A DNA stretch of 64,000 nt, taken from Pocillopora verrucosa (taxonomy: Eukaryota > Cnidaria > Anthozoa > Scleractinia > Pocilloporidae). The notes under the pieces are model-generated. The model worked only from the letters and a program-made list of their open reading frames with translations, did no database searches and had not been told where the DNA came from. Numbering within the stretch: position 1 is the stretch's first letter; each line of letters begins with the position of its first letter. Below are positions 25,440 through 59,270 of this stretch, in pieces. The translations under genes and the position numbers were made by a program. The stretch spans positions 11,786,011 to 11,850,010 of the forward strand of contig NC_089313.1 of the NCBI RefSeq assembly GCF_036669915.1. Reading direction: 5' to 3'.

Positions 25440-25627
25440 TTTAATATCACACCCATCCCCATCCTGTAAATGTAAAGTTCTCATCATCATCATCATCATC
25501 ATCATCGTAATCATGGAAGTAATCATTAACACTGCATCTGCTTTTCATTGGCTCTTGGTTGCCAGGAACACATAGGTCCTCCAAGCAAACTGAACTCTGG
25601 TGATACCTCTTCACCTTGTGAGTAAAC
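25440..25627 (-). pseudogene. Out-of-frame remains of the BTB-1 C-terminus and acidic tail
   Basis: Continuation of the BTB-1 homology beyond its current stop. The stretch keeps the equivalents of VVDSQGEEGITRLQFAW and of PMKSRCSVNDYF followed by an Asp run encoded by a (TCA)n microsatellite on the plus strand at 25480-25505. Two further one-base losses separate these pieces. Confidence 0.65.
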
Positions 25628-26940
25628 TACTGCAGCACCAATTCCTGCCAGGAAACCGTATGACCCTGGTGGAGTTTCAGAGAAGAATCCTCCACCATCC
25701 CCTCCATAAGGACCATAACATTTAGGTTCTCCTTTATCATCTTTCTTGTTTGAAAAAATTGGAGCTGGTTGATCATCAGTCCAGAGTTTACTTCAACTCT
25801 AACAATCCTCTCATTTTCTTTCAGATGAAATTCATGGTGTTCACAGTGACTGGAGTCACTTCCAAACTTCACCTCTCTGTCACCATTGTAGAAAATCCTT
25901 AGGCCACCTAGTACAGATGTCCCACACCATTGACGGATCCATAAATCCATTCCCTTTATAAACACATCATTTCTCAGATCTTCAACAATCATTTCATCAC
26001 TGTGATGTGATCTTACAGAAAGTCTCCGCACATCACTTGCAAAGCAACGCCCCCACCAGACTACAGGTTTGGCAAATACCCTTGTGGTTGCCCACCTTTC
26101 ATCCGGTGAGTCTTTCTCAGAGGAATCAATTTGCAGTTTCTGTGCCTTTGCAATCCATTCTGTGCACGAGTTTGCAAGAAGCTTATGTAACAGGATTTCT
26201 TTCAAATAAGACTTTGATATGGTTGGAAGTCGTACTAAAGATAACAATTCTGGCAAATTCTTTTTTCGGTTTGCTAGATCATGTTCCACATACTTAAAAA
26301 CAGCTTCCAACACCGCCCTTTCCCGTTCCTCTGCAACCGGAATTAGGTTCTCGATGACTACACAGATACCTTCATCGGCAAGAATCTCTTTCAGGAAACC
26401 AATTGGAAGAGAGAGAAATTCCTCCTCCTTGCAGATCTCTGTGAAATGCTGCAGGGCGTACCTTTTGGCAGTTTCCCTTAGCTTTTCCAGCGAAAAACAA
26501 TCAGCAAGCTGCCAGATGCTAAGACAAGTTTCATCATCGATTGCATCTTTCAAGAAATCTCCGCATGATTTCTTGACAAACTCCACCTGCAAATAATTGG
26601 ATGCCTCGAGCAAAGTTTGCACATTGTCTTTGTTGACATTAATTTTGCCCGAATATGCGAATTCGATCAAATCACTGACAGCATTCTCGTCAAAACCAAG
26701 AAATTCTATCTCTTTTTCCACTCCATCGTCCCAGTGTTTCCCAAGTAGGGCTTTAAAGTAAGGACTAAACGAGACCAGAACAACACGATGAGCTCGAAGT
26801 CGTCGGTCTTGGCTGATCTTTAAAGCGACATCACAATGCATGCCGTGCTTGATTTTATTTGAATCGCTTGTGAGCGAGAGATCAATATTTGTCGAATACG
26901 ACCGGCCAAGAAGGGGAAAATATCCCTTTCCAGTGGCCAT
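25627..26940 (-). CDS. BTB-BACK protein with frameshifted jacalin-like C-terminus (BTB-1)
   Basis: Intronless 437-residue frame, ATG at 26940. It has a BTB domain (about 35-125, with HRVVLVSFSPYFKALLGKHW and DENAVSDLIEFAYSGKI) and a BACK domain (about 130-240, IWQLADCFSLEKL, LSLPIGFLKEILADEGIC). BTB-BACK proteins normally bridge Cullin-3 to substrates. After a linker comes the start of the jacalin-like domain (FIKGMDLWIRQWCG, RIVRVEVNSGLM). At LQFF the frame departs from its two paralogs. Reading the other frames recovers KCYGPYGGDGGGFF, then GSYGFLAGIGAAVV, then the Asp-run tail down to about 25440. Three single-base deletions relative to the paralogs explain this. It also lacks about 12 residues just before the BTB core. 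It is either a decaying copy or a shortened protein that keeps BTB-BACK. Confidence 0.8.
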   Translation of the reverse strand: MATGKGYFPLLGRSYSTNIDLSLTSDSNKIKHGMHCDVALKISQDRRLRAHRVVLVSFSPYFKALLGKHWDDGVEKEIEFLGFDENAVSDLIEFAYSGKINVNKDNVQTLLEASNYLQVEFVKKSCGDFLKDAIDDETCLSIWQLADCFSLEKLRETAKRYALQHFTEICKEEEFLSLPIGFLKEILADEGICVVIENLIPVAEERERAVLEAVFKYVEHDLANRKKNLPELLSLVRLPTISKSYLKEILLHKLLANSCTEWIAKAQKLQIDSSEKDSPDERWATTRVFAKPVVWWGRCFASDVRRLSVRSHHSDEMIVEDLRNDVFIKGMDLWIRQWCGTSVLGGLRIFYNGDREVKFGSDSSHCEHHEFHLKENERIVRVEVNSGLMINQLQFFQTRKMIKENLNVMVLMEGMVEDSSLKLHQGHTVSWQELVLQ

Positions 26941-26984
26941 GTTTAAACGAGAATATTGACTGAATTCCAGTTTTTGCTCGGCTG

Positions 26985-28840
26985 AAACTGTCCTCCCAAC
27001 AATCTCGTTCCCAAGGTCTTGCGATCTAAATTCAGCCGAGGAGAGTGCGAGGAGGTTTGAAAAATGTCTTGCTTTTTCAAGTTTGTAAACGAAACAATAT
27101 CACTTAAAGTCAGGAGCACATCATCTCCAAATAAAAAAAGGGAAAGCGGTAGAGTACTTTATTTGCACAGAGAATGGAATAATTTGAAAATTGATGAGAG
27201 GCTTAAAATGGAGCTTACTTGGTGAAAATGGGAAAAGGAGCAAAAGGCAGGGACCACGCAGCAAGTTTTCGAGTGGAGGGGCTAAAGAAGAATGCGTGAA
27301 GGAAATTTTTTTTGTTAAATCATTTTTTGTTTAGTTTATTTTATTCTTGCAAAAAAGTGGGAGGGCTAAAGGAGCTATCCTGAAAAACGAATGAGTCAAT
27401 CCCCATGAAATGACAGGGAGGATCTTCAATTTGTGACAATGTCTTTTGTCGATTTCTTTTCATCTAAGAGTTCACATTGTTTTCATCTTCCAAAGAAATA
27501 AATAATAATATCTGGGATTTAGTAGTGGACATTCGATGAGGTGACTCTTCTTGTCCGCTTTTTTGGAATCCGGAAGTAGGCGCGTTACAATCTCTCTTGG
27601 GAACTTGCAGTTTTTAATAGAGAGGAGTGAAGATATGCCAGACTTTCCAGACTCTAGATATATGTGGCATTTTAAGAGGTTCTGTAAAGTGTGTTTATAA
27701 TTCAAAGAGGAAAGTCAATTGGATATGTATGATAAAGTCAGGATTCATGGAATCAGAGAACTGGTGAAGACATCATACAATTTATGTTGTGCATAACTCA
27801 CTAAAAGTTCTTCAGCATTACCCTTACAACCACATCTCCCTTTAGCACACACAGAGTATGTCCATTTCAAAAGATGTCTCCTACAGTGAAAAGGTGTTGT
27901 TACCTCCAGCTAAAGTTTCATCATGCAAAGGCTGGTTATTCAATTTAAATAAGACTTCCTCAAAGTGGGAAATAATAGATTCAAGCATATTTTTAACTGT
28001 CCTAGCAACTTAATTAAACCTACAGGTCTTGAGTTCTTTCAACTATGGATACAGCTTTCACACTTTCCAAAAAAGCTTAAGTTCCCTGTCAAAGATTTCT
28101 AAAGCAGCTATATATTCTGAACAAATTTTATCAAATGATTTTCATGCACCTCATGTGCCACTTTTCTTGTCCTTGACACATTTTGACACCATCTGTGATC
28201 TATTACTGAACAATTAAACAAACGAAAAACTCTGACTTGCTACCCCTAGTGCAAGGTCCATCACACAAAGGCTGAACTTGACTAATGAACTTATACCAAC
28301 ACCTGCATCACAGAGCTCAAATGAATGTTTGCTTCCACCAGAAAAAACAACCCAAACATCATGAAGGGGCCAACTTTTGACTCAAGCTCTGAATGTATCA
28401 TTGATAGAAATTTATTTGAAAAATCACTGTGAAAATAATAATTTTATATCATACAAACAAACAAAATTTGACTATTAAGGTCCTGAATACACAAAATTTG
28501 TAACACAAAATGTTGGTTCTCAACACTCACAAAGAATTTTTGAGAAAAAGTTCTACGATGAATGCCCTCCAGTAGATGGCTGAAAAAAATAGTTTTGTAT
28601 TTATAGCCACAAATTTAAACTAGTTTCAGTGGATGCATTGGCTACATTGTCCTTAAAAAGTCCTTTGCAAGTACCACATACTCAAACAACATATAAGGTC
28701 TTTCTACCTGTAAAAATAAAAATAATGAAAATTAATACTTGATGCATTTTTAAAAGTTGTGGTGCAGTTGCTGAGAGGTAAAGCATACAAAGTGAGCTCA
28801 GGTGTTTGACAATTTTTAATCACAAGGGGTCTGGCAACCA
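26985..28840. other. BTB-1 upstream region, no recognised gene
   Basis: No coding pattern recognised. A stretch at 27500-27560 resembles 6679-6740 (GGGATTTAGTAGTGGACATT against GGGCTTTAGCAGTGAACATT), so both are probably pieces of one dispersed repeat. Confidence 0.4.
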
Positions 28841-28841
28841 T

Positions 28842-29050
28842 TCCCCCTTTCACTCCTCAGATCTAAATTTTAGTTCTCCACACTGTCTGCTATGCATTTC
28901 AAAAATTTTTTGCTTAGAGAATTTAGTGTTAAATCAGATGGTGTCTGCTAATCGACATGTTTCTTTCTTCTCAACAACCTTTTGCCTAAAACTTCAGTGG
29001 AACTGTTAGGAGAAATTCCAATTTGGTCACCACTGGGAGTGAAAGGGTTA
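28842..29050. mobile_element. CTTTAACTCCCA-type MITE
   Basis: Starts CCCCCTTTCACTCCTCAGAT and ends CTGGGAGTGAAAGGGTTAA. It lies between the first two BTB genes. Confidence 0.7.
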
Positions 29051-29099
29051 AGTACAATTGGAACAATCAGTGATATGACTAAATACAAGCCATACAGAC

Positions 29100-29720
29100 A
29101 TAAGCCATTTTAAGGTGATTCCTTCGTATTTCATTGCCCATCCTGTACTGCACATAAAACTCACATAAACTGGCAAATAAGCGCATGCATTCCAAAAACA
29201 TGTTGTTTTTTAATTAATACAAAAGAGGTGCCACGGTCTTTAGCTCTTGAATGAGCATGGTCACCTATATTTTTTATTGCATAATTTTGGTGTACTTATT
29301 ATCCCCTTTAACTTGGAGAAATAAAAAAAAATTAATTAAAGAAAAAAACAGATATAGCAAAAAGGTGTGGACAAAGCCTGTCACTTGATGCAAATTATGA
29401 CCTTGACATGGATGATTTGAGAAATTTTTAAAGTCAATGTTGTTTAAAATTGTGATTTTTCCACAAATTATATACAAAATTGTTCTCTATCATTCCATAC
29501 TTTAAAAACCCTTGCTTCCAACTTCTGAAAAATTTACTGTGCCCATTAAACCTCTTAATAAAATAAGCATGGCAAACTATCTTTTTTATTGTATATTTTC
29601 AAGACAATGGTAAAGAACATTTAAGGAAAGTATAAATAAATTGTTTGATAACTTATTTTCTGAGGGATCACTTTAAGACAAAGTCTTATGTTAAACATTA
29701 TCCTTTTTTTCTAAACTAGT
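29100..29720. repeat. BTB-downstream block, copy 1
   Basis: The block containing GAGGTGCCACGGTCTTTAGC, TTGCATAATTTTGGTGTACT and the end TGATAACTTATTTTCTGAGG recurs, diverged, at about 35080-35660 and in part at 44205-44410. It is the 3' flank that travelled with BTB gene duplications. Confidence 0.6.
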
Positions 29721-30064
29721 TATAAGCTATGGTGACTGGAGAATTTTTCTCCCTACTGGCATTGCATCAGAACACAAACAAAAAGCTGTAGTGCACAAGC
29801 TGGACATGAAATTTTCTGGATTAAGTTGTTTGAAACATGAAAAGCACCATGCTAGATTTAAGCTGTCACAGTAACACAACTATGAGTATTGTAGGCAGTG
29901 AACCCAGGATTAAAATTCATTAGGTTAAAAAGAAAACCTGAGTCAGATTCAATATTCTCTAGGGCCTTCAATCAATCTCAATCCTAGGTGTGATCAATAA
30001 ATTCTACATCCATTCTTACCACAATCTCAGGCAAATGGCTCAAACATGTAAATTTGTATTCCAC

Positions 30065-30360
30065 CTTCCTGATTAATTATATCATCAAAGTCATCAAAAC
30101 CTTCATAACCTTCATAACCATCAAAATCTTTGTTGTCATCATAATTGTTATAATCATAACTCTCTATATTATTCCATATTAATGCCCATCACACCTCTTA
30201 ATTAAACAAGCACAGTGAACCATCTTTTCTATTGAATTTTTTAAGACAATGGTAGCAAATATTTAAGGAAAGTTTAACAAATTGTTTGATAACTTTTTTT
30301 TCTGAGGAATCACTTTGAGAGAAAGTCTTCTGTTGACCATTATCCTTTTTTCTAAACTAG
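30065..30360 (-). pseudogene. Orphan acidic-tail fragment of a BTB paralog
   Basis: TCATCAAAGTCATCAAAACC and CTTCATAACCATCAAAATCT at 30075-30160 repeat the Asp/Glu/Tyr-rich tail coding of BTB-2, and the flank TTTAAGACAATGG...CTGAGGAATCACTTTGAGA at 30240-30320 repeats its 3' side. No BTB, BACK or lectin part accompanies it, so it is the tail end of a lost copy. Confidence 0.55.
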
Positions 30361-31964
30361 TTATAATCTAGGTTGTTTAATTGTTCTGCGGCAACGAGAA
30401 AGTCATCAAAATCTTCATAACCATCATAATCTTCATAACCATCGAAATCTTCGTCATCATCATAATCGTCATAATCATAACTCTCCTCATCATCATAGAA
30501 GCCATCGTTAGCTTTGCATCTGCTTTTTATTGGCTCTGGGTAACCAGGAAGCACATATACCCTCCATGCAAACTGAAGTCTGGTGATACCTTCTTCACCC
30601 TGTGAGTCAACAACAGCAGCACCAATTCCTGCTAGGAAACCGTACGACCCTGGTTGAGTCTCAGTGTAGTATCCTCCACCATCCCCTCCATAAGGACCAT
30701 AACATTTAGGATCACCATTTTCATCTTTCTTGTTAGTGTAAAAGGAGAGGCGGTCAATCATCCATCCAGAATTAACATCAACTTTGACGATCCTTTCATT
30801 TTTTTCCAAGTGAAATTCATGGTGTTCGGACTGATCAGAGCCACTTCCCATCATCATCTCTTGGTCACCGTTATGATTATAAAAAATCTTCAGCCCTCCC
30901 AGAACAGGCCTCCCATCCCAGCGTCGAATCCAAAGTTTCATTCCCTTTATGAAGACGTCACTGCCAAGATCTTCAACAGCCTCTGTGTTGTTGTGATGAG
31001 ATGTTTCAGGATGTACGTAGCCACCATTAGCAAAGGAACGCCCCCAACTGACAGCAGGTTTGGCAAACGCCCGAGTGCTCGCCCATATTTCATCGGCTGA
31101 ATCTTTCTCGGGGGAATCAGTTTTCAGCTTACGAGCCTTTGAAATGATTCCTCTGCTGGAGTCTGCAATAAGTTTGTGTTCTGAGATTTCTTCCAGATAA
31201 GACTCTGATAAAGTTGGAAGTCGTACCAAGGATAACAATTCTGGAAAATGTCTTTTTCGGTTGTCGATATCATGCTCAACATACTTCAAAACGGCTTCCA
31301 ACACGACCTTTTCCCTTTCCTCTTTGGACGGAATCAGGCTCTCAATAACCACACAGATACCTTCATCAGCAAGAATCTCTTTCAGGAAACCAATTGGAAG
31401 CGACAAAAATTCTTCCATCTGAGTGACTTCAGTAAAGTGCCGCGAAAAGTGATTTTTAGCCTCCTTCATTAGCTCTTCCAGCGCAAACAAATCAGCAAGC
31501 TGCCAGATGCTAGAACAAGTTTTATCACTGATTGCACCTTTCAGAAAATCTCCGCACGATTTCTTGACAAACTCCACCTGCAAATAATTGGATGCCTCGA
31601 GCAAAGTTTGCACATTGTCTTTACTGATGTCAATTTCGCCCGAATATGCGAATTCGATCAAATCGCTGACAGCATTCTCGTCAAAGCCAAGAACTTCTAT
31701 CTCCTTTTTCTCTCCATCAGCCCAGTTTTTCCCGAACAAGGCTTCAAAGTAAGGACTAAAAGAGGCCAGAACAACACGATGAACTGAAAGCCGTCGGTCT
31801 TCACTTATCTTCAAAGTGACATCAGAATATCTGCCATCTTTGTACATGGTCAAAAGCCCCTTCAGAAGATTACAGCCATGGCTTGGATCGTTTGCATGTA
31901 AAGTTTCCATATCCGTCGAAAAATACCTTTCCAGAGAAGGTAAACCTCTTTTCATTGCTGCCAT
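30357..31964 (-). CDS. BTB-BACK-jacalin-like lectin protein (BTB-2), intact
   Basis: Single-exon frame of 535 residues, start MAAMKRGLPS. BTB about 37-146 (DGRYSDVTLKISEDRRLSVH, VVLASFSPYFEALFGKNW). BACK about 148-255 (SIWQLADLFALEELMKEAK, LSLPIGFLKEILADEGICVV). Linker about 260-325 with PAVSWGRSFANGG. The C-terminal domain (about 327-478) shows the pattern of jacalin-like/ZG16 lectins: VFIKGMKLWIRRW, GLKIFY, NERIVKVDVNSGWMIDRLSF, then Gly-rich YGPYGGDGGG, and GITRLQFAW at the end. An Asp/Glu/Tyr tail (486-523) is encoded by GAT/GAA repeats. There are no Kelch repeats. BTB-BACK suggests a Cullin-3 adaptor; the lectin-like fold would then be the substrate or glycan reader. The lectin assignment is from memory of the family, not a search. 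Confidence 0.85.
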   Translation of the reverse strand: MAAMKRGLPSLERYFSTDMETLHANDPSHGCNLLKGLLTMYKDGRYSDVTLKISEDRRLSVHRVVLASFSPYFEALFGKNWADGEKKEIEVLGFDENAVSDLIEFAYSGEIDISKDNVQTLLEASNYLQVEFVKKSCGDFLKGAISDKTCSSIWQLADLFALEELMKEAKNHFSRHFTEVTQMEEFLSLPIGFLKEILADEGICVVIESLIPSKEEREKVVLEAVLKYVEHDIDNRKRHFPELLSLVRLPTLSESYLEEISEHKLIADSSRGIISKARKLKTDSPEKDSADEIWASTRAFAKPAVSWGRSFANGGYVHPETSHHNNTEAVEDLGSDVFIKGMKLWIRRWDGRPVLGGLKIFYNHNGDQEMMMGSGSDQSEHHEFHLEKNERIVKVDVNSGWMIDRLSFYTNKKDENGDPKCYGPYGGDGGGYYTETQPGSYGFLAGIGAAVVDSQGEEGITRLQFAWRVYVLPGYPEPIKSRCKANDGFYDDEESYDYDDYDDDEDFDGYEDYDGYEDFDDFLVAAEQLNNLDYN

Positions 31965-32290
31965 TTTGAAGATTTTCCGAGAAGAGAAAAGTCAAAATGT
32001 TCGGTTTCGCTAACGGCGTCTGCAAAGTCTTCAGATTTTAGTCGAAAGCGGAAGTCGGGGTGACTAGTTACCAGATCTCACACTCAGGTGGAATACATGG
32101 TCAAAAGTCCCTTCAGCAGTTCGGAACCATGGCTTTAATCTTTTGCGTTAAAATTTCCAGATTAATATTATGGCCATTTTAAAGATTTTCTGAGAAGGGA
32201 AAACTAATGTTTGGTTTCGCCAACGAGGTCTGGGAGTCTTTGCTCATGGTCGAAAGCGGAAGTCGGGGTGACTAGTTACCAGATCTCACT
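31965..32290 (-). repeat. BTB-2 leader region with internal 208-bp duplication
   Basis: GAAAGCGGAAGTCGGGGTGA then CTAGTTACCAGATCTCAC occurs at 32043-32082 and again at 32251-32288, and AAGATTTTCCGAGAAG at 31970 recurs as AAGATTTTCTGAGAAG at 32183. The first leader copy is shared with BTB-3 at 37233-37360. Between the copies lies a short coding-like remnant shared with 37370-37440. Confidence 0.6.
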
Positions 32291-33950
32291 CGAATGAAAT
32301 TGGCCTCACATTTTACTTCTTGCTTATTCTCCTTCGACGTCAGGGAAGCAATGAAGAGGGGGGTGAATAGGCCAACGGATCGGAGGATTCTGAAAATTAT
32401 TTTGCTCGGATTTCGGATTCAGAGCGAAATTTCAACGGATTTGCGGATCCTGAACTTGCAGCGATTCACAGTTTCATCAATTTTTTGGGTCCGGATTTTG
32501 GATTTTGCTTGCGAGGAAGTTCGAATCGTGGATCGAAAAGGTTGTCAGAAATGCGTTGTTTCTGGGTATGTGTATTTTTTTTGTCACGGCCGGACGAGAC
32601 TCACTTCATGTCACGCATCAGGGAAATAATAACGAACTATGGCCAGCATGAGGAAAGAGGAAGAATATGCATCACTTGGACATGACAAACACCGAGTAAA
32701 CTTCATGGTTTGGTAAACATGTTGGTTCTAAAAAATGAGCGCCTCGTTTGAAAACGGCTGTGCGTCAGAAACAAAGTCTTTAAACCGTCACTTTCGATTG
32801 CATTTAACACCAGTAGTAAGACCAAAAACTGTATTTGTGCGTTGACTTTTTACCAGGCGACTTGACTTACATATAGAGAGAGGTGGTTTAAATGAGTCAC
32901 TGCAATACGGATAACTTAAATTATTTTTGAATTTTCGAACCTTTGGCTCGATGCGCTAAACGAGGGTCAAGTCTACCCTTGGGTACACCAATGGAGATTA
33001 ATTGTACCAGTGCATATTTACACTACCCTCTCCCTCAGTGCAGCAAAATTGTTACTCCGATAATTTTCTCGATCAGTTACGAGCTTTTCCGCCTCCCTTC
33101 GGCCAAAGTCCCTCAGGGCGACCAATAACTCCGGACTTTTGTTTGATGCTTAATGGAAAAGTTGACCCGGAACAATGGACCATTTCTTGCTACGGCGCAC
33201 ATTCAGGCAATCGCGTGAGTTGGCAGATAGCCTGTGTTCCTAGCAGACTCACATTCCAAAAGAGAATACATAATGAACAACTCGAGTATGACGGATATGG
33301 ATTTATGTGCAATAAATGTTCAACGCATCATTAGTTATGGAAACGATTTACCAGAGACAGCTTCAGATATCCGAAGACAGAGTCGACTTGGCCCTGTCTG
33401 ACGGTTTGGAGTCTTCTGAAGTAAACAAGAATGAGGAGGAAGTTGAAACAGGCGACAGTGACCCCGAGAATGTGGAGGAGATCCCAGAGTATGACTCAAG
33501 TACAGATGAAAACGAGGAACCAGAAGATGGAGATTCAAGCATTCCTGAACTTGACAGACGGTCCACTTTCCTATTAGGGAGCCACGACACGCTTTGGACG
33601 ACAAGTCAGGATCAACGACAGATTCCTAATGTAAAGGTAGATCTTTTAGTTAGCGGTTAAAGATCCTATAAAAAGTGTCAGAACGTTTTTTAAAATTGTT
33701 TAGCTATAACACACAACAGCTCAAGGTACGTTTTTCACCTTTGCACGTGACAAGTAGCAAACGGATTCGGATTAAACAATTTTCTTTAACGGCTTGACGG
33801 ATTTGCATACCCCTATTCACCCTCCTCAATAAAATAAAAGATCTTTTAAATTACTTATCTTATGAATTGATCTACCAAACCAGATGAACCATATATCAGT
33901 CATATATCTTTTTTTTTCTCTCCATTGTTCCAATTTTTCCTGAAAAGGGC
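32290..33950 (+). other. Unassigned open frames between BTB-2 and a BTB fragment
   Basis: Two plus-strand frames stand out: 33002-33334 (110 codons; pieces such as DPEQWTISCYGAHSGNRVSW) and 33316-33660 (114 codons, acidic, NKNEEEVETGDSDPENVEE). They overlap by 19 bases in different frames. I do not recognise either. They could be exons or relics of one gene, or an element. Homology is not claimed. Confidence 0.3.
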
Positions 33951-33952
33951 TT

Positions 33953-34140
33953 CAAACTAAGGTTTAACAGAGCCAGAGCAACACGATGCACTGAAAGCCG
34001 TCCGTCTTCACTGATCTTCAAAAGGATATCAGAATATCTGCCATCTCTGTACATGGTCTAAAGTCCCTTCAGCAGTTCGGAACCATGACTTGAATCATTT
34101 GCATTAAAATTTTCCAGATTGCTCTTCGTTGAGAGAGAGC
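33953..34140 (-). pseudogene. BTB-domain fragment with in-frame stop
   Basis: On the minus strand GGCAGATATTCTGATATCC and CAGTGAAGACGGACGGCTTT read as GRYSDI and SEDGRL, followed by HRVALAL, the start of the same BTB domain as BTB-2. A stop lies just before TMYRDG, and the frame is lost after about 45 codons. The upstream leader fragment accompanies it. Confidence 0.65.
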
Positions 34141-35080
34141 TGACCAAAGATGAAGTCCACAGTCCCCTAGCAGTGGCCGTGTAGACGATTTTTATACCAA
34201 GATAAATCCTGATCTTTCGGTTTAATCACGTTGGTTTCAAGCGATCAAAGGCAATATATTTTACCTTCATTTCCGAAGCTGAGCATAGCTTTGTTTCTTC
34301 ATTAATACATCCGGAGAGGACTAAAATGCCTCAGTTCGATTCGTGGTCGTGGTAATTGTCACTATCATGCAGTTCAGGGCCGGAATGAATCTGCCACAAT
34401 CAATACTAGAAAGTTTTATACATCTGCCAGAGCTGATGTAGCTATGAGGACTGAACTTCATTGTTTTTGTTAAGCTGCTTTGTAAAAATTATTAAGCAAT
34501 TCAGAACCGTCAAGTATTTGTTTCTTTGATCCCGACCTGTGTGTATTAATACGTTTGTCCGTGATCGAAGTTTAACGGAAGGAGGTCGTTACCAGGACTA
34601 GCGTACGTTATTCGTGCAAAACTTTGAAAACTTCTAAAATAAACGATATCATTATTTTGATTAAAAGAGATGAACTTTCGTCTTACGATGACCATAAACT
34701 TCGACGGATCAATGCTGTGGTTGAGAAAATCACCACCTAACGAAAAGGCCCTCCTAAGTTTAGGAAATGGACTAAGACAAAATTGTATGATCTGGATCGG
34801 GATTGGCTAGTATGAACCGTCGGGATTACAGGATTAAGAAAAAATTTTAGTCGGGAAGAAGAACGCTATTGGAGACCCTATGTAAGGAGAAATTGGACTG
34901 ATGCTAGTCACTCTTAGGAGTTAAAGGGTTTATTAAATAAGCAAGGTGAACTATCTTTTTTATTGTATTATTATAAGAAGGAACATTTTAGGAAAGTTTA
35001 AAGAAATTGTTCGATAACTTTTTTTTCTGATGAATCACTCTAAGACAAAGTCTTATGTAAACCATTATCCTTTTTAATGA
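34140..35080. other. BTB flanking repeats
   Basis: 34380-34500 carries the GCCGGAATGAATCTGCCACA block that also occurs at 37706 and 38286. The rest shows no recognised coding pattern except the partial MITE listed separately. Confidence 0.45.
34795..34931. mobile_element. CTTTAACTCCCA-type MITE, partial
   Basis: Only the right half is clear: GTAAGGAGAAATTGGACTGA and the end GTCACTCTTAGGAGTTAAAG GGTT. Confidence 0.5.
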
Positions 35081-35660
35081 ATAAAACTCGCATAAACTGG
35101 CAAATAAGCACATGCATTTCAAAAACACATACTTGTTTTTTAAATAATGGATAAGATGTACCATGGTCTTTAGCTCTTGCATAAGCACAGTGACCTATAT
35201 CTTTTATTGCATAATATCGGTGTACTAACTATCCCCTTCAAATCGGAGAAATAAAAAAAATTCGCTGAGGAGAAAAACAAATATAGCTAGAAGCCTGCAT
35301 AAAGCCTGTTACTTAATGCAGATTATGACCTTGACAGTGACAATTCAAGAAAGTTTTTAAGTCGATGTTGTTTAAAATGATGTGAATTTTCCAAAAATTT
35401 TATACAAATTGTTCCATATTACTCCATACTTTAAAAACCCATGCTTCCAACTTCTGCGAAATGTACCGAGAACTGATGGAATACCGCACGTGATTAGTGC
35501 CCATCATACCTCTTAATTGAACAAGCACGGTGAACTGTCTTTTTTGTTGTATTTTTCAAGACAATGCAGGAAACATTTAAGGAAAGAGTAAAAAATTGTT
35601 TGATAACGTTTTTTTTTTTCTGAGGAATCACTTTGAGACAAAGTCTTATGTTAACCATTA
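35080..35660. repeat. BTB-downstream block, copy 2
   Basis: Second copy of the 3' flank seen at 29100-29720 (shared AAACTGGCAAATAAGC, TGCATAAT, GTGTACT and TTGAACAAGCACGGTGAAC segments), immediately downstream of BTB-3. Confidence 0.6.
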
Positions 35661-37232
35661 TGACCATTGTGCGGCAACGAGAATACCACCAAAGTCATCA
35701 AAATCTTCGTCGTCATCGTAATCGTCATAATCATCATCATCATCATAACTCTCCTCATCATCATAGAAGCCATCGTTAGCTTTGCATCTGCTTTTATTTG
35801 GCTCTAGGTCACCAGGAAGCACATATGCCCTCCATGCAAACTGAAGTCTGGTGATACCTTCTTCACCCTGTGAGTCAACGACAGCAGCACCAATTCCAGC
35901 TAGGAAACCATACGACCCTGGTGGAGTCTCAGTGTAGAATGCTCCACCATTCCCTCCATAAGGACCATAACATTGAGGATAACCGTTTTCATCTTTCTTG
36001 TTTGTGTAAAAGGAGAGGCGGTCAATCATCCATCCAGAATTAACATCAACTTTGACGATCCTTTCATTTTTTTCCAAGTGAAATTCATGGTGTTCGGACT
36101 GATCAGAGTCACTTCCCATCATAATCTCTTGGTCACCGTTATGATTATAAAAAATCTTCAGCCCTCCCAGAACAGGCCTCCCATCCCAGCGTCGAATCCA
36201 AAGTTTCATTCCCTTTATGAAGACGTCACTGCCAAGATCTTCAGCAGCCTCTGTGTTGTTGTGATGAGATGTTTCAGGATGTACGTTGCCACCATTAGCA
36301 AAGGAACGCCCCCAACTGACAGCAGGTTTGGCAAACGCTCGAGTGCTCGCCCACATTTCATCGGCTGAATCTTTCTCGGGGGAATCAGTTTTCAGCTTAC
36401 GAGCCTTTGAAATGATTCCTCTGCTGGAGTCTGCGATAAGTTTGTGCTCTGAGATTTCACCCAGATAAGACTCTGATAAAGTTGGGAGTCGTACCAAGGA
36501 TAACAATTCTGGAAAATGTGTTTTTCGGTTGTCGATATCATGCTCAACATACTTCAAAACGGCTTCCAACACGACCTCTTCTCTTTCTTCTTTGGACGGA
36601 ATCAGGCTCTCGATAACCACGCAAATACCTTCATCAGCAAGAATCTCTTTCAGGAGACCAATTGGAAGCGACAAAAACTCTTCCATCTGAGTGACTTCAG
36701 TAAAATGCAGCAAAAAGTGATTTTTAGCCTCCTTCATTAGCTCTTCCAGCGCAAACAAATCAGCAAGCTGCCAGATGCTAGGACAAGTTTTATCACTGAT
36801 TGCACCTTTCAGAAAATCTCCGCACGATTTCTTGACAAACTCCACCTGCAAATAATTGGATGCCTCGAGCAAAGTTTGCACATTGTCTTTGCTGATGTCA
36901 ATTTTGGCCGAATATGCGAATTCGATCAAATCGCTGACAGCATTCTCGTCAAAGCCAAGAACTTCTATCTCCTTTTTCTCTCCATCAGCCCAGTTTTTCC
37001 CGAACAAGGCTTCAAAGTAAGGACTAAAAGAGGCCAGAACAACACGATGAACTGAAAGCCGTCGGTCTTCACTAATCTTCAAAGTGACATCAGAATATCT
37101 GCCATCTTTGTACATGGTCAAAAGCCCCTTCAGAAGATTACAGCCATGGCTTGGATCGTTTGCATGTAAAGTTTCCATATCCGTCGAAAAATACCTTTCC
37201 AGAGAAGGTAAACCTCTTTTCATTGCGGCCAT
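35658..37232 (-). CDS. BTB-BACK-jacalin-like lectin protein (BTB-3), intact
   Basis: Single-exon frame of 524 residues, nearly identical to BTB-2 from the start through the lectin-like domain (scattered changes such as G to A in AYSAKIDISK and R to L in HFLLHFTEV). The same domain order applies: BTB about 37-146, BACK about 148-255, jacalin-like about 327-478. The acidic tail is shorter and differently arranged (DDDDDYDDYDDDEDFDDFGG), showing length change in the GAT-repeat coding. Offset to BTB-2 is 5268 bp and the identity extends over the 5' leader, so this is a recent tandem duplication or is homogenised by gene conversion. The absence of introns suggests that the family founder was a retrocopy. 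Confidence 0.86.
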   Translation of the reverse strand: MAAMKRGLPSLERYFSTDMETLHANDPSHGCNLLKGLLTMYKDGRYSDVTLKISEDRRLSVHRVVLASFSPYFEALFGKNWADGEKKEIEVLGFDENAVSDLIEFAYSAKIDISKDNVQTLLEASNYLQVEFVKKSCGDFLKGAISDKTCPSIWQLADLFALEELMKEAKNHFLLHFTEVTQMEEFLSLPIGLLKEILADEGICVVIESLIPSKEEREEVVLEAVLKYVEHDIDNRKTHFPELLSLVRLPTLSESYLGEISEHKLIADSSRGIISKARKLKTDSPEKDSADEMWASTRAFAKPAVSWGRSFANGGNVHPETSHHNNTEAAEDLGSDVFIKGMKLWIRRWDGRPVLGGLKIFYNHNGDQEIMMGSDSDQSEHHEFHLEKNERIVKVDVNSGWMIDRLSFYTNKKDENGYPQCYGPYGGNGGAFYTETPPGSYGFLAGIGAAVVDSQGEEGITRLQFAWRAYVLPGDLEPNKSRCKANDGFYDDEESYDDDDDYDDYDDDEDFDDFGGILVAAQWS

Positions 37233-37699
37233 TTTGAAGATTTTCCGAGAAGAGAAAAGTCAAAATGTTCGGTTTCGCTAACGGCGTCTGCAAAGTCTTC
37301 AGATTTTAGTCGAAAGCGGAAGTCGGGGTGACTAGTTACCAGATCTCACACTCAGGTGGAATACATGGTCAAAAGTCCCTTCAGCAGTTCGGAACCATGG
37401 CTTTAATCTTTTGCGTTAAAATTTCCAGATTAATATTCATCGAAAGAGAGCTGACAGAAGAAGAGGTTCACAGTCCCTCGGCGGTGGCCATGTAAACAAT
37501 TTTGATACCAAGGGAAATCCTAATCTTTCTGTTTGACCACGTTGGTTTCAACCGATTAATGGCAATGTATTTTACCTTCATTTTCGAAGCTGAGCATAGC
37601 TTTGTTTGTTTATTATATTTTTTTAATTAATATTTTTTTATTCTGGAGAGGACCAAAATACCTCAGTTCGATTGGTGGTCTTGGTAATTGACACTATCA

Positions 37700-38700
37700 G
37701 TCCAGGGCCGGAATGAATCTGCCACAATCAAAAATAGAAAATTTCATATAGCTGCCAGAGCCGATGTAGCTATGAAAACTGAATGTCATTATTTTGTCTA
37801 ATTGCTTTGTAAAAATCATTACGCGAACCGTCAAGTTTTTGTTTTGACGCGTGATTCCCGATTCAAACTTCAACGTAGCCAAGCACTGAGAGGACAAACA
37901 CGAAAACCCGTCTTACTTAAATATACAGCACACCGGGTGAAAATGTTTACATGTGCACAAACTGGTCTGATTACTGAGAGAAATTTCTCTATTTGCGTGG
38001 AACATCAAGTAAAGCTTAGTTTGAAAATATGTGTCGAAACTGAAAAATTCTAAAAAATGAATATGTTTCCCGTGTTTGATTTAGTATCAGACTCTGAAAC
38101 AAGACTAATTCGATATCAAGTTTCGATAACGCTTTTCCCGAACAAGGCTTCAAAGTAAGGACTAAAAAAGGCCATAACAATACGATGAGCTGAAAGCCGT
38201 CGGTCTTCACTGATCTTCAAAGTAACATCAGAATATCTGCCATCTTTGTACATGGTCAAAAGCCCCTTCAGAAGATTACAGCCATGGGCCGGAATGAATC
38301 TGCCACAATCAAAACTAGAAAATTTTACAGGACTGAATGTCATTATTTTTGTTTAGCTGCTCTGTAAAAATCATTATGCGATTCAGAACCGTCAAATGTT
38401 TGCTTCGACACCTGATTCCCGATTCAAACTTCAACGTAGCCGAGCACTGAGAAGACAAGCTCGTAAACTCGTCTTACTTAAATATACAGCATACCGGGTG
38501 AAAATGTTTACATGTGCACAAACTATTCTGATTACTGAGAGAAATTTCGCTACTCGCGTGGAACATCTAGTAAAGCTTAGTTTGAAAATATGTGCCGAAA
38601 CTGAAAAATTCTGAAAATGAATTTGTTTCCCGTGTTTGATTTAGTATCAGACTCTAAAACAAGACTAATTCCATATCAAGTTTCGATAACACTTTTTTTT
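37700..38700. repeat. Two tandem copies of a block of about 560 bp
   Basis: Copy 1 is about 37705-38136 and copy 2 about 38288-38696, both running from GCCGGAATGAATCTGCCACA through ATGTTTACATGTGCACAAAC to CATATCAAGTTTCGATAAC-type ends. A BTB fragment sits between them. A third, shorter copy is at 34380-34500. No coding function is recognised. Confidence 0.65.
38134..38290 (-). pseudogene. BTB-domain fragment
   Basis: Minus strand reads HGCNLLKGLLTMYKDGRYSD, then LKISEDRRLSAHRIV and SPYFEALFGK, equal to residues about 29-79 of BTB-2 with few changes, then stops matching at both edges exactly where the 560-bp block begins. It was captured within that tandem duplication. Confidence 0.75.
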
Positions 38701-40125: not shown

Positions 40126-43100
40126 AGTTGGCGTCCTTCTGTCTCGGGAGACAATGGAGTTGCGCCCATGGTCAGTCTGTGGTGGAGCTGCAGCGCCGGC
40201 TGTGGCTGTAGAGACCGATCCTCGAGCGGCAGATCCTGCTGCAGTTGCTGCATGCGAAGACGTTGTCGTCCGAGGGGGATGGGTTGGCCTCTGCTCTCTG
40301 GCGCCTGCGAGCTCTCATGTCTTCCCACTGCTCCTCTCTTTTCTGCTCTGCTGTCTTGATGGCTGACATGGTGGTGGATCGCCAGCCGCTGCGGTCCGCT
40401 GCCAGTGCTTCGAAGCCTGCTGGCGCAATGCCACCCGCCTTCAGGTCCCGCTTGAGCACATCCTTGTAGCGGAGCGAAGGTCGTCCAGTGGGTCTGGACC
40501 CAGTGGCAAGCTCACCGTACAGAATGTCTTTCGGTAGCCTGCCATCTTGCATGCGGGTGACATGACCGAGCCATCGCAGGCGTCTCTTGGTTAGCAGGGC
40601 GTACATGCTCACAGTTCCTGCCCTTGCTAGGACTTCGGTGTTTGGGATGCGATCCTGCCAGGTGATGCCGAGGATTCTCCTGAGGCAACGCAGGTGGAAA
40701 GCATTGAGCCTGCGTTCTTGCCGGGTGTAGGGAGTCCAACTCTCGCTGCCGTACAGCAGTGTGCTCAGCACACACGCCTGGTACACTTGCGTCTTGGTCT
40801 TGATGGTGAGCATAGTGTTCTCCCACACTCTCTTGGTCAGGCGGGCCATAGCTGTTGAGGCCTTGCCGATCCTCGTGTTCAGCTTGGTGTCCAGGCTGAG
40901 GTTGCTGGAGATGGTGGACCCAAGATAGGTAAAGTCCTCCACCACATCAAGGGTACAGTCACCTATGGAGATGCTGGGAGCAGTGCTGACGTCTTGGCCC
41001 AGAATGTTGGTCTTTTTTATGCTGATTGTGAGGCCAAACTGTGAACAGGCATGGGCAAAGCAGTTGATGAGCTCCTGGAGGGCAGTTTCGGTGTGAGCTG
41101 TGATGGCGGCATCATCAGCGAAGAGCATCTCCCGGATGAGGACTTTGCGCACCTTTGTCTTGGCTCGGAGGCGTGCCAGGTTGAACAGGCTACCGTCGCT
41201 CCTGGTGTGCAGGTAGATGCCCTCTTCGGATTGGCTGAAGGCGTAGCGCAGCAGCAGGGAGAACAGGATGCCAAAAAGTGTCGGCGCGAGGACACACCCT
41301 TGTTTGACGCCGCTCTTGATGGGGAAGGGGTCCGAGGAGGAGCCATCGTACTGGACAGTACCTTTCATTTCCTTGTGGAAGGAGATGATCAACCTCAGGA
41401 GCTTGGGGGGGCATCCAATCCTGTGCAGGAGTGTGAACAAACCTGACCTGCTGACCAGGTCGAACGCTTTGGTCAGGTCTATGAAAGCGATGTACAGGGG
41501 GCGTCTCTGCTCACGGCATTTCTCTTGTAGCTGCCTCAGGGAGAAGATCATGTCGATCGTAGACCTTTCGGCTCGAAATCCGCACTGTGATTCTGGGTAC
41601 ACACGCTCTGCCAGTGGCTGCAGTCTGTTCAACACGACGCGGGCAAAGGTCTTGCCGACGATGCTGAGGAGGGATATTCCGCGATAGTTATTGCAATCGC
41701 TGCGATCACCTTTGTTTTTGTAGAGCGTGATGATGTTGGCGTCACGCATGTCCTGAGGCACACTTCCTTCCTCCCAGCATTGTAGCAGAAGTTCGTGGAG
41801 ATGTTCGAGAAGACTGGTCTCTTTGCCTGCTTTTATGACCTCTGGCGGAATGCCATCGTTGCCTGGGGCTTTGCCGCTGGCTAGGGAGTCTATGGCCTTA
41901 CTGAGCTCCTCGATAGTGGGTGGGTCATCAAGCTCTCCCATGACTGGCAGGGGGCTCGTGTTCTCCACTGCTGTGTCAGTCACAACGGTCTCCCTGGAGT
42001 ACAGCTCCTGGTAATGTTCCGCCCATCTCGCCATTTGCTTTGCACGGTCTGTGATGAATTCGCCAGTGGATGACTTGAGAGGGGCAGTCTTGATTGCGCA
42101 TGGGCCGAAGGCTTTCTTCGTTCCCTCATACATGGCTCGAATGTTGCCGCAGTCAGCCGATGTCTGGATGCCTTGACATAGGTTCTGCCAGTAGTTGTTG
42201 GCGCACTGTCTAGCAATCTTTTGGGCTTCACTTCTGGCTCGTCTGAGGGCAGTCAGAGTCTTTTCACAGGGGTCTTTCTTGTAGTTCAGTAGGGAAGTTC
42301 TCTTGGATGAGATGGCTGGCTCAAGTTCCTCGATTCCGGCTTCGAACCAGTCGGGGTTTTTGCGCTCTCTCTTTCCAAAAGTGTCCACTGCAGATTTGTA
42401 TGTAGCGTCACGAATGTGGTTCCATCTATCCTCAGCGCAGCTAGTTGGACAGTCGCTGAGGGCCTCTTGGATGGCATCTGCGAAACGTTCGCGTAGTTCA
42501 GGCACAGAGGTCACGGCTGTATTGATGCGGGGACGTCCTTTGTGCTTTGAGTGGTGGATTCGCTTGGGTTGGAGACGCACTTTGCTGGCGACCATAGAGT
42601 GGTCTGTGTCGCAGTCAGCGCTGTGGTAGCTACGGGTGGACAGGACACTGTTCAGCAGGGGTCTGCGGGTGATCACGAGATCCAGCTGGTGCCAGTGACG
42701 GGATCTGGGGTGCCGCCAGGACACTCTGTGGTGAGGTTTCGTGGTGAAGAACGTGTTTGTGATGCAGAGGTCATGGAAGGAGCATAGCTCGAGGAGACGC
42801 TGCCCGTTCTCGTTGAGTTTGCCTACGCCAAAGTGGCCGATGCATCGAGGCCAGGAGGTGAAGTCTGAACCAATCCGGGCGTTGAAATCGCCAAGCAGGT
42901 ACAGGTGTTCTGAGGGGGGTATTTCCTTGATGGCGGTCTCAAGCTGGCTGTAGAACTCGTCCTTTGCCTCTGCTGTAGAGCAAAGCGTGGGGGCATAGGT
43001 GCTCATGATGTTCACAGGGCCTGAGGTTGTTGTGAGGCGAAGGGAAAGGATGCGGGCTGTGCCTTCTGAGGGTGGTTCGACTGAGGGCAGTAGGGAGTTC

Positions 43101-44138
43101 CTAACCGCAAAGCCTGCACCATGCACACGATGCTCCTCTGGAGCTTTCCCCTGCCAGAAGAAAGTATAGTCCTCCTCTTTCAGGCTGCCATTGGATGGGA
43201 GTCTAGTTTCCTGCAGTGCTGCTATGTCAATGTTGAGCCTCTTGAGCTCTCGGCTGATGACTGCTGTCTTCCTTGCGTCATCGATCTGCTGGAGATCGTC
43301 GGAGAGGCCAGGGCACATGGTCCTGACATTCCAAGTTGCCAGTCTCAGCGCTGGCGGCTTTGATGTCTTTCTTCTTCTTTTGTCTGGTGCGGGATTTACA
43401 GTCCGCTCTTCGGTGTTGTCCTTAGCTCCAAGCACCCATTGAAGCAGGCAGACTGTGACGGGTCAGCACCTTACTGGCTGGGGGCTGCCCAGCTTGAGGC
43501 GGGCGATAGCTGACCAGTGGGACGCGAAGATCCCTCCCACCGTCGGAGACAGCCCCTGGCGTCCGAGCTCACGCCAATACGCTCTGGGCTTATAACCGGT
43601 ATCTGCTGTCTCCCGTGTTGTTTCTGTCGCTGGAACAGCGGCACTGGAGTGACTTCTCCAGGGCGCAAGCCTGGGCGGAGTGTGTGGAGATCCTGGGTTG
43701 CCCAGTCGACAGGACCCCCCTCTCGGCCTCGCCGGTGTAGTCCAAAGGAATGCAGAGCAGTACGTTTGGCACCAGGTTGGCTGCAGGAGCTGCCGGAGTC
43801 AGTGAGCACTGCACGCTGGTCCGCCTTCGGGGCTCCACTCCTGATTTGAAGGGTTTACTCCCCTACACATGGCCGTTGGATCTTCAGATCTCCTCCGCCC
43901 TCTAGCCGTTGGCTGCCTGGAGCAGCTCCTCCGCCTAGTAGTGATGCAGTGTAAACATCACCCCCTCACGTGGTTTAGCCCGCCAGCTGAGGCGGTGTGC
44001 CGGGGTGTGGCGCTTGGAGCCAGCACGTGAGAGATTTAGGAGATGGATGAGGACCAGTGTGCCCGTCCACCCTACCAAGTAGGATGCAGCTGCCAGACGA
44101 CAAAGGTACTACCTCTATCCAGAGCCCCCCTACACCCC
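40126..44138 (-). mobile_element. Full-length 4.0-kb non-LTR retrotransposon (APE endonuclease + RT)
   Basis: The direct repeat ATAAAGGAAAT flanks it at 40115-40125 and 44139-44149. Outside these, the two halves (40064-40125 and 44139-44195) join into one copy of the short repeat found intact at 9237-9435, which fixes both ends. Inside is GC-rich DNA unlike the host: a 5' leader of about 700 bp (44138-43436), one long frame, and a very short 3' leader without a poly(A) tail. Clade not resolved; the domain layout fits RTE/Jockey-like elements. Confidence 0.88.
40172..43435 (-). CDS. Endonuclease-reverse transcriptase polyprotein of the non-LTR element
   Basis: Open for 1087 codons. The apurinic-type endonuclease covers about residues 30-290 (LATWNVRTM, AALQETRLPS, LGDFNARIGSDF, DTDHSMVASKV). 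The reverse transcriptase covers about 530-830 (ITLYKNKGDRSDCNNYRGIS, FIDLTKAFD, SGVKQGCVLAPTLFGIL, and the catalytic FADDAA near residue 772). A thumb-like region with RMQDGRLPKD follows, then a C-terminal Cys/His finger (FACSNCSRICRSRIGLYSHS, about 1058-1083). No ATG lies between the preceding in-frame stop and the endonuclease; the frame opens with GTG at 43435, while a nearby ATG at 43440 is in another frame and stops after five codons. A one-base loss near the true start, or non-AUG initiation, would explain this. Confidence 0.9.
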   Translation of the reverse strand: MLGAKDNTEERTVNPAPDKRRRKTSKPPALRLATWNVRTMCPGLSDDLQQIDDARKTAVISRELKRLNIDIAALQETRLPSNGSLKEEDYTFFWQGKAPEEHRVHGAGFAVRNSLLPSVEPPSEGTARILSLRLTTTSGPVNIMSTYAPTLCSTAEAKDEFYSQLETAIKEIPPSEHLYLLGDFNARIGSDFTSWPRCIGHFGVGKLNENGQRLLELCSFHDLCITNTFFTTKPHHRVSWRHPRSRHWHQLDLVITRRPLLNSVLSTRSYHSADCDTDHSMVASKVRLQPKRIHHSKHKGRPRINTAVTSVPELRERFADAIQEALSDCPTSCAEDRWNHIRDATYKSAVDTFGKRERKNPDWFEAGIEELEPAISSKRTSLLNYKKDPCEKTLTALRRARSEAQKIARQCANNYWQNLCQGIQTSADCGNIRAMYEGTKKAFGPCAIKTAPLKSSTGEFITDRAKQMARWAEHYQELYSRETVVTDTAVENTSPLPVMGELDDPPTIEELSKAIDSLASGKAPGNDGIPPEVIKAGKETSLLEHLHELLLQCWEEGSVPQDMRDANIITLYKNKGDRSDCNNYRGISLLSIVGKTFARVVLNRLQPLAERVYPESQCGFRAERSTIDMIFSLRQLQEKCREQRRPLYIAFIDLTKAFDLVSRSGLFTLLHRIGCPPKLLRLIISFHKEMKGTVQYDGSSSDPFPIKSGVKQGCVLAPTLFGILFSLLLRYAFSQSEEGIYLHTRSDGSLFNLARLRAKTKVRKVLIREMLFADDAAITAHTETALQELINCFAHACSQFGLTISIKKTNILGQDVSTAPSISIGDCTLDVVEDFTYLGSTISSNLSLDTKLNTRIGKASTAMARLTKRVWENTMLTIKTKTQVYQACVLSTLLYGSESWTPYTRQERRLNAFHLRCLRRILGITWQDRIPNTEVLARAGTVSMYALLTKRRLRWLGHVTRMQDGRLPKDILYGELATGSRPTGRPSLRYKDVLKRDLKAGGIAPAGFEALAADRSGWRSTTMSAIKTAEQKREEQWEDMRARRRQRAEANPSPSDDNVFACSNCSRICRSRIGLYSHSRRCSSTTD

Positions 44139-57334: not shown

Positions 57335-58863
57335 TTAGGTGTGGGTGGGTTTACGATAGACACTTGTCTCTAAATTACCCTGAACCCCTCTAGACACATT
57401 TAAATCAAGAAAGGGCAAATGTCTATCCTTTTCACGTTCAAGGGTGAATTGGATCGACGGCTCTACTGAATTCAAATGCGACAAGAGGCGCTCCGCTTCA
57501 TTTCCGGATACCGCAGAAATAACATCATCGACATATCGTTTCCAGAAAAAGGGTTTAACCGGTGAAGTGGCTAAGGCCCTTTGTTCCACGTCTTCCATTA
57601 CCATGTTAGCAATGACAGCAGAAACAGGCGAACCCATAGCTGTACCAAAAACTTGTTGATAGTATGTGCCGTTATATGTAAATTGCGTGGTTTTGAGGCA
57701 AAAAGACAGCAGGTGAATAATATCCTCCACAGGCAAAGAAGTTCTTTGTCCTAGGGAAGCATCTTCTCTGAGTCTTTCCTCCGCAACCTTAACGGCAAGA
57801 TCAACTGGGATTTTAGTGAAGAGCGAAACAACGTCGAAAGATACTAATTCTTCACAAGCGTCAAGAGTTTTATCTCTTATGAAATCCGTAAATTCGCAGG
57901 AATTTTTGACAGTGTAATCAGTATTCCCAACAACAGGCGACAAAATTCTCGCAAGATAACCAGAAATTGCATAAGTCGGAGAATTAACAAAAGAGACAAT
58001 GGGTCTCAAAGGAATTCCCGGTTTATGAATTTTAGGTAAGCCATAAAAACGTGGACATAAGCCGTCACTACTGTATAACATTTTGTACGTAGAGTCACTA
58101 ATTCTGCCAGCTTTTTTCAAATCAAGCAACATTTTGTTTAACTTTCTTTGAGTTTTACTGGTTGGATCAGAGTTTAAGACAGCATACGTACTCTTGTCAT
58201 TGAGCAGAGACAAAGCTTTGTCGTGATATTGCTGTTTGTCCATAACCACAACACAATTACCCTTGTCAGCAGATAATACGAGCCTGTCCGGATCCTTTTT
58301 GAGAGTTATAAGCGCATTGAAAACATCCTTTTGAATGTTTTTGGGAGGAGGTTTAGCACGCCTGAGTACGCTACTTACTTCTGCTCTTACCAAATGCCTA
58401 CGATCGTCGTCGAGTTGAGAGATACTCTCCTCAACAGCGGCGACAATTTCGGCGGTCGATATTTTGCGAGGAGCAATAGCAAACTTTAGACCCTTCTCTA
58501 AACCACTCCGTTCCAGCGCGGATAATTCCTTGGAGGAAAGGTTCATGACCCATTTATCTTTCAGAGATGAGCCTGAATTAACAGGAGACCTCTTACTGAG
58601 CAAGTGACGGAGTTTTCTGTCATGTTTCTCTCTCTGTTTGGTAAACGTCTGCAGTTCTTTCGAAATGCAAAACTCCTCGACCCAGGAAGTTTCGGAGTTG
58701 TTAATCAAAGCAGAGAGTTCACTGAGTGAACGAGAGAATAACGTACGTAACCGCAGTATAGTAACGCTCTTGATGAAAGGGAACCAGCGACTGGTTTTGC
58801 TGTTATTCCTTACATACAGGGTGTTACTGAACCCATCAAGAGAATTTTGCCACAACGTTAAAG
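57335..58863 (-). CDS. Penelope-like reverse transcriptase, truncated
   Basis: About 506 codons open on the minus strand. PLE-specific pieces appear in order: KWVMNLSSKELSALERSGL, KFAIAPRKISTAEIV, LVLSADKGNCVVVMDK, FYGLPKIHKPGIPLRPIVS, SFDVVSLFTKIPVDLAV, GTAMGSPVSAVIANMVMED, and the catalytic YVDD in WKRYVDDV. The frame has no ATG before the homology starts: it opens at the junction near 58863 and the first ATG is about 100 codons in, so the 5' part is missing or rearranged. It ends at VYRKPTHT, where a normal element continues into the linker and GIY-YIG domain. Confidence 0.87.
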
Positions 58864-59270
58864 TTGCTCAAAAACCTTTTCAGACTTTGGGGCATATTTT
58901 CGCCAAACCTAAGGATCCTGTCACGAAAGAACAACGAACCGACGCCATTTATTCTATTCCTTGCAATGACTGTGATAACGAATACATCGGACAGACCAAA
59001 CGCCAGTTTGGTACACGGTTAAAAGAGCACCAAAAAGCGGTTTTTCTTTGCAAAAAGGAAAATTCAGCTTTATCGGAGCATACTTGCCTAACCAACCATA
59101 CAATTGGGTGGGATAATTCTAAAATTATCACTACTAATCGGCGTTACCACCAGCGCCTTTGTTTGGAGGCTTGGCACATTAACTCCGCCCACGCTCCTTT
59201 AAATCGTGACGATGGCGGTCTGCTTCCTGACGCCTATTTACACCTCGTCAGAAAAAAGGCCGCTAATTAG
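58838..59270 (+). CDS. Penelope-like GIY-YIG endonuclease domain, opposite strand to its RT
   Basis: The plus-strand frame in use from about 58838 reads KPFQTLGHIFAKPKDPV, then AIYSIPCNDCDNEYIGQTKR, TRLKEHQKAVF and ALSEHTCLTNHTIGWD, ending KKAAN stop. This is the linker, the Cys-pair and the GIY-YIG-type nuclease found after the RT in Penelope elements (here EYIGQT with Arg and the downstream EHQK). Codons before 58838 are the antisense of the RT and not genuine. The domain points away from the RT, head to head. Confidence 0.85.

Follow-up and report, generated by a model that had tools for sequence, protein, structure and literature searches.

The question raised by a 64,000-nucleotide stretch of the genome of the stony coral Pocillopora verrucosa (NC_089313.1, positions 11,786,011 to 11,850,010, hereafter the window) is whether a BTB-BACK protein of the ubiquitin ligase adaptor type can carry a jacalin-like domain in the place of Kelch repeats, and what such a protein might recognise. 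The window, which lies at C2:11786011-11850010 of the genome that we searched (353 Mb, 52 contigs), holds three genes, here named A, B and C, of a BTB-BACK-jacalin family with seven copies in total, the others being C2d and C2e on the same contig, C7 and C13. Our analysis revealed the domain content of this family, its position as one clade among the sequences compared, an old fusion, a duplication of the C7 copy at the DNA level and purifying selection on the reading frame. By their sequences, the proteins are likely to be Cullin-3 BTB-BACK adaptors with a jacalin-like receptor, a variant on adaptors already known, and glycan reading by the predicted jacalin domain is plausible.

A jacalin-like domain behind BTB and BACK

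Gene B (30357..31964, minus strand, as for every family feature of the window given below) encodes a 535-residue protein in a single open reading frame (ORF), in which a BTB domain (residues 40-142, 31539..31847; PF00651, 90.3 bits) and a BACK domain (residues 150-260, 31185..31517; PF07707, 74.5 bits) precede a jacalin-like region (residues 336-471, 30552..30959) and an aspartate-rich C-terminal tail (residues 474-535, 30360..30545) with Asp or Glu at 24 of its 62 positions. The Pfam match to Jacalin PF01419 spans residues 349-433 and scores 27.7 bits with the whole protein, above the curated cut-off of 22 bits; the outer limits of the region were drawn by eye from three repeat-like blocks. 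Gene C (35658..37232), a single ORF of 524 residues with 94% identity to B, has the same three domains (BTB 88.4 bits, BACK 73.4, Jacalin 26.8), and its jacalin-like region (residues 336-471, 35820..36227) keeps GXXXD and the GG loop, two elements that are considered below. BTB, BACK and Jacalin thus exceed their Pfam cut-offs in both proteins, and the profile search by which the preliminary description of this DNA had proposed to check its BTB-BACK-jacalin assignment bears that assignment out.

Across the seven copies, BTB and BACK are above cut-off in every one and Jacalin in five (B 27.7, C 26.8, C13 30.8, C2e 25.6 and C7 22.6 bits), with C2d just under it at 21.6 and A well under it at 12.2. 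No Kelch family, F-box or FBA match was returned for any of the seven proteins in Pfam at E values up to 1, and the prokaryotic NCBIfam library returned no family for B or C13. When the jacalin region of gene B was cut out alone its score to PF01419 rose to 31.6 bits, and neither its reversal nor eight shuffles gave a Jacalin match (0 of 9), which rules out a composition artefact of a glycine-rich region; two of these nine controls each had a weak match to a family with no relation to Jacalin (E 0.027 and 0.31). A search of PDB sequences with the C-terminal region by phmmer returned 13 matches to just two molecules, an entry named 'Dirigent protein' (2 matches, E 0.005), whose aligned stretch looks jacalin-like by its letters, and griffithsin (11 matches, E 0.10-0.21), a jacalin-type lectin according to passages of PMC4059138. 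A profile of the seven family rows matched a ZG16-like jacalin exon of the same genome with a probability of 66.5%, compared with 0.3% for a Kelch propeller used as control.

Several results nevertheless temper the domain assignment. Each of the two profile-profile tests is one comparison built from few rows. A profile search of the PDB returned ZG16 at no better than E 0.97, beside GFP at 0.96, and two AlphaFold2 runs of three sequences each reached mean predicted local distance difference test scores of 33.6 and 34.0. With both structure models of low confidence, it is from sequence that the domain is assigned and its beta-prism fold predicted.

The ZG16-like exon used for comparison is a separate jacalin exon (C2:6356807-6357145) with a 135-residue frame that scores 43.8 bits and is ZG16-like by eye. 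A search of the genome with the Jacalin family returned four places, namely C13, B, C and this exon, which is the sole Jacalin match found by that search outside the BTB-BACK genes. The same search missed C2d, C2e and C7, so counts from such searches are lower bounds.

Gene A (25627..26940), an older paralogue, retains BTB and BACK above cut-off in an ORF of 437 residues but loses its frame within the jacalin region, where the alignment has three single-base gaps relative to B and C. Downstream of the ORF, DNA that is still like that of B and C reaches a run of Asp codons (25481..25626; BLAST, alignment and three-frame translation). Gene A may be truly broken, or the gaps may be assembly errors. 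Two fragments of the 5' end of the gene, each from the start of BTB, lie nearby: one at 33913..34116 (BLAST and alignment), with an internal stop and 83% identity to B, and one of 155 bp at 38133..38287 (BLAST), with 96% identity to B. The preliminary description had spoken of three intronless genes joining BTB-BACK to a jacalin-like region, which holds for the continuous ORFs of B and C, intronless in their coding part, but not for A with its broken frame. Three peptide strings that it had quoted from the C-terminal region are all in B and two of them in C, where the middle one reads GPYGGNGG, but none is in the ORF of A. The interval that it had drawn ends near 38290, where there is no complete gene but only the 155-bp fragment, and the Asp-rich tail that it had reported is present in B and C but is not a feature of the family.

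Copies, descent and selection

The count of seven BTB-BACK-jacalin loci comes from a genome search with the whole of gene B, in which 81 of 198 candidate places were scored. Five of the loci lie within about 104 kb of contig C2, namely A, B and C together with C2d (C2:11905098) and C2e (C2:11914402), whereas the C7 copy is at C7:12733914 and the C13 paralogue is covered by two search loci (L002 and L011). The open frame of C13 is 521 residues long with a TTG start, or 501 residues from its first ATG, and the protein has 45% identity to B over the matched part with the domain order of B. When the jacalin region of C13 was itself used as the genome query, only the seven known loci were found at E values up to 1. 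The Asp-rich tail occurs only in B, C and the remnant of A; C2d, C2e and C7 end before it, and C13 is without it.

In a tree of 30 BTB-BACK loci laid out from the gene B search, the remaining matches of which were left out, the seven family genes form one clade with a support of 100/100 against 23 other rows. The clade sits on a long stem of 1.16 changes per column, with C13 branching first and A next. Ten of the 23 other rows were scanned with Pfam at E values up to 0.001, and all ten have Kelch and none has Jacalin. The synonymous sites of C13 are saturated relative to all other copies, and the BTB-BACK-jacalin fusion is therefore old. Searches of prokaryotic and viral contig collections found no relatives of the family, a result that carries no information on animals.

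Almost the whole of the 9 kb fetched around the C7 copy matches the C2d locus at 97% identity, as one block of 2570 bp and another of 6353 bp, with non-coding DNA included. Since the flanking non-coding DNA is shared, the C7 copy moved as DNA and retroposition is ruled out as its source, for this copy only. The 97% identity over nearly 9 kb reflects either a recent duplication between contigs or an assembly effect. C7 and C2d also end at the identical place directly after the jacalin domain.

Ratios of nonsynonymous to synonymous change (dN/dS) were obtained by the pairwise Nei-Gojobori method, with pairs that are non-independent, with neither a site test nor a significance test, and from small counts, such as 6 synonymous and 11 other changes between the jacalin parts of B and C. 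For the five close copies (B, C, C2d, C2e and C7), whole-gene values were 0.20-0.42 in all 10 pairs, and by domain they were 0.12-0.35 for BTB, 0-0.39 for BACK and 0.44-0.84 for the jacalin part. The intact part of gene A gave 0.30-0.32 against the same five copies, and 0.25-0.27 in its jacalin part. None of the computable values, pairwise and domain-wide, exceeded 1. The reading frame is under purifying selection, more loosely so at the receptor end in the recent pairs.

The preliminary description had compared a local expansion of these genes to that of immune-type genes. Its local part is confirmed, since five of the seven loci share a stretch of about 104 kb on C2. The comparison finds no backing, since domain-wide dN/dS is below 1 in every computable pair and the copy number is small, and immune-type positive selection or an arms race is accordingly unsupported. 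A second, larger local array of BTB-BACK genes lies on another contig (C12:15270538-15361103), where 15 matches occupy about 91 kb on both strands; by eye, four of the five loci fetched there encode Kelch-like repeats, and the fifth has a short frame.

A putative Cullin-3 adaptor and its possible target

In the mechanism that we propose, the family would consist of intracellular BTB-BACK proteins that recruit substrates to Cullin-3 RING ubiquitin ligases, with a jacalin-like beta-prism in the place of the Kelch propeller. The BTB domain would dimerise and, together with BACK, dock on Cullin-3, as family membership and the interface residues suggest, while the jacalin domain would hold the target, as its position in the protein suggests; we hold these two steps jointly with moderate confidence. 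In the copies with GXXXD and the GG loop, the target would bear a mannose-type or related glycan, and the ligase might then mark glycoproteins exposed to the cytosol in the manner of the mammalian SCF-Fbs1, SCF-Fbs2 and SCF-Fbs3 ligases, a step that on its own we regard as possible but somewhat doubtful. The target would in the end be ubiquitinated and then degraded or cleared.

The best PDB match of the BTB-BACK part is KLHL3, aligned over residues 13-268 at E 1.1e-34. Passages describing the structure of KLHL3 with Cullin-3 place its phi-x-E motif at M83-S84-E85 (PMC3616122). Gene B has W81-A82-D83 at these positions, C13 has W-V-E and the other copies have W-A-D or W-D-D, so that Trp stands at the position of KLHL3 Met83 in all seven copies. 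Telling against docking, the acid position of the motif is Asp instead of Glu in six of the seven, with Glu only in C13. From BTB-BACK, the kept Trp and the Asp or Glu at the KLHL3 Glu85 position, a role as Cullin-3 adaptor may reasonably be inferred, and the jacalin domain in the Kelch position is a likely substrate receptor. The genome contains exons for cullins, taken together irrespective of type.

In jacalin-type mannose lectins, the sugar site consists of the GG loop and GXXXD, according to passages of PMC4059138. In gene B, G-W-M-I-D (residues 400-404, 30753..30767) and then G-P-Y-G-G-D-G-G (residues 423-430, 30675..30698) occur within one block and align with S-G-x-x-I-D and G-P-Y-G-G-S-G-G of the second griffithsin repeat. 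Both elements are kept in five of the seven copies, with GWMID in B, C, C2d and C7 and GCMID in C2e, and these five could therefore read a glycan. The case for glycan reading is weakened by C13, which has GTLIN and no GG loop, by A, which has GLMIN with Asn for Asp, and by the presence of the motif in only one of the three repeat-like blocks; C13, the deepest paralogue, accordingly probably does not read a glycan by this site. These same points speak for a jacalin-like domain that is a sugar-blind, protein-binding module, so that the proteins would be ordinary Cullin-3 adaptors for a protein target, much as FBXO44 is a relative of Fbs1 that binds no sugar. We take this alternative as a serious possibility, not far short of an even prospect, with the GXXXD motif and GG loop of the five copies, and their match to the second griffithsin repeat, standing against it.

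Two further alternatives concern the family as a whole. Not every BTB protein binds Cullin-3, and the Asp at the phi-x-E position in six of seven copies would also fit a BTB-BACK module that merely dimerises, giving bivalent cytosolic lectins or scaffolds; we consider this quite unlikely in view of the BTB-BACK pairing, the large hydrophobic Trp that every copy has as its phi residue, W-V-E in C13 and the extent of the alignment to KLHL3. That the cluster consists mostly of functionless, decaying duplicates, with the domain fusion as a relic, is very unlikely: in its favour are the broken frame of gene A, the two neighbouring fragments, the three copies that end short of the tail and a dN/dS of 0.44-0.84 for the jacalin part in the ten recent pairs, but whole-gene dN/dS is 0.20-0.42 in all ten and 0.30-0.32 for the intact part of A, and C13 keeps the full domain order despite its saturated synonymous sites.

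Set beside known systems, the proposed Cullin-3 adaptors resemble the KLHL and KBTBD proteins, such as KLHL3, the best PDB match, which serve Cullin-3 as BTB-BACK-Kelch adaptors and have BTB then BACK in the same order. The coral family differs in having a jacalin-like domain in the place of Kelch and a BACK domain with an insertion relative to the KLHL3, KLHL11 and gigaxonin chains. Kelch was looked for and not found, and the family is therefore not counted as a member of KLHL. SPOP and other MATH-BTB adaptors likewise join a BTB adaptor to a non-Kelch substrate domain, although MATH precedes BTB and the group is strongly expanded in nematodes, whereas the coral family is small. The nitrile-specifier proteins of Brassicaceae, which combine jacalin with Kelch, also place a jacalin domain within a multidomain intracellular protein, but they are not known to have BTB or BACK and their role is metabolic.

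The SCF-Fbs adaptors use an F-box and an FBA domain, of an unrelated lectin fold, on Cullin-1, whereas the coral family has BTB-BACK and, as proposed, Cullin-3; two FBA-type matches occur elsewhere in the coral genome. What SCF-Fbs1, Fbs2 and Fbs3 (FBXO2, FBXO6 and FBXO27) would share with the coral proteins is the principle of a cytosolic ligase adaptor with a lectin receptor; passages of PMC6389600 describe the group as reading the N-glycans of mislocalised glycoproteins and of damaged lysosomes, and an excerpt of PMC4603797 describes their relative FBXO44 as reading no glycan. For plants, the former passages describe a ligase adaptor that has a lectin domain joined to it (PMC6389600). These plant fusions differ from the coral family in adaptor, cullin and lectin domain. 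Their lectin part is known as Nictaba.

Known animal jacalin-related lectins are secreted. Passages on rotifer lectins agree (PMC8878817), and the 'BTB' found there is part of another abbreviation. These animal lectins, among them ZG16p and the pearl-shell PPL lectins, share the PF01419 match with the coral proteins, as does griffithsin, and ZG16p (in passages of PMC4059138) and griffithsin share GXXXD and the GG loop as well; the coral domain differs in being part of a BTB-BACK protein, in which inspection by eye shows no signal peptide. The sea anemone E. pallida has jacalin-like lectin genes, whose domain order is not given in the excerpt of PMC8698432. Judged by titles and abstract openings, none of the 27 open-access papers that mention both BTB and jacalin describes such a fusion in an animal, nor does any paper among the rows listed in related searches; most subscription papers as well as InterPro and UniProt lie outside this scope, so the architecture may already be catalogued.

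Ubiquitin ligases that read sugars have been described on the F-box and Cullin-1 side. If Cullin-3 indeed had an adaptor whose receptor is of lectin type, this would amount to another solution of independent construction and would offer a testable link in coral between intracellular glycan recognition and the handling of ingested cells. A broader view, unlikely as it stands, is that a Cullin-3 ligase reading glycans through a jacalin prism would be an animal counterpart, of separate origin, to SCF-Fbs. In coral it could mark glycoproteins exposed by rupture of phagosomes or symbiont vesicles, tying intracellular glycan recognition to the clearance of microbes or algae, and paralogues that no longer have the sugar site would have turned to proteins as targets. 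Even if the receptor reads proteins, the Kelch position is filled by another domain, predicted to be of beta type, that is kept under purifying selection.

Other features of the window and genome

An ORF of 1087 residues at 40172-43435 (minus strand) resembles a non-LTR (long terminal repeat) retrotransposon by eye, with an endonuclease and a reverse transcriptase. Two 2-kb blocks over it have a GC content of 0.56-0.57, against 0.31-0.43 in the other blocks. A 1-kb piece of this ORF has 26 genome matches including itself, one of them 99% identical on C5, so the element has probably moved recently. Further along, a reverse-transcriptase-like ORF (57335-58867, minus strand) and a GIY-YIG-like ORF (58608-59270, plus strand), both assigned by eye, may be parts of Penelope-like elements that run in opposite directions. 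Elsewhere in the genome, 74 GFP-family matches, in keeping with an anthozoan source, all lie on contig C1, in two dense exon arrays at about 0.67-0.88 Mb and 28.36-28.79 Mb.

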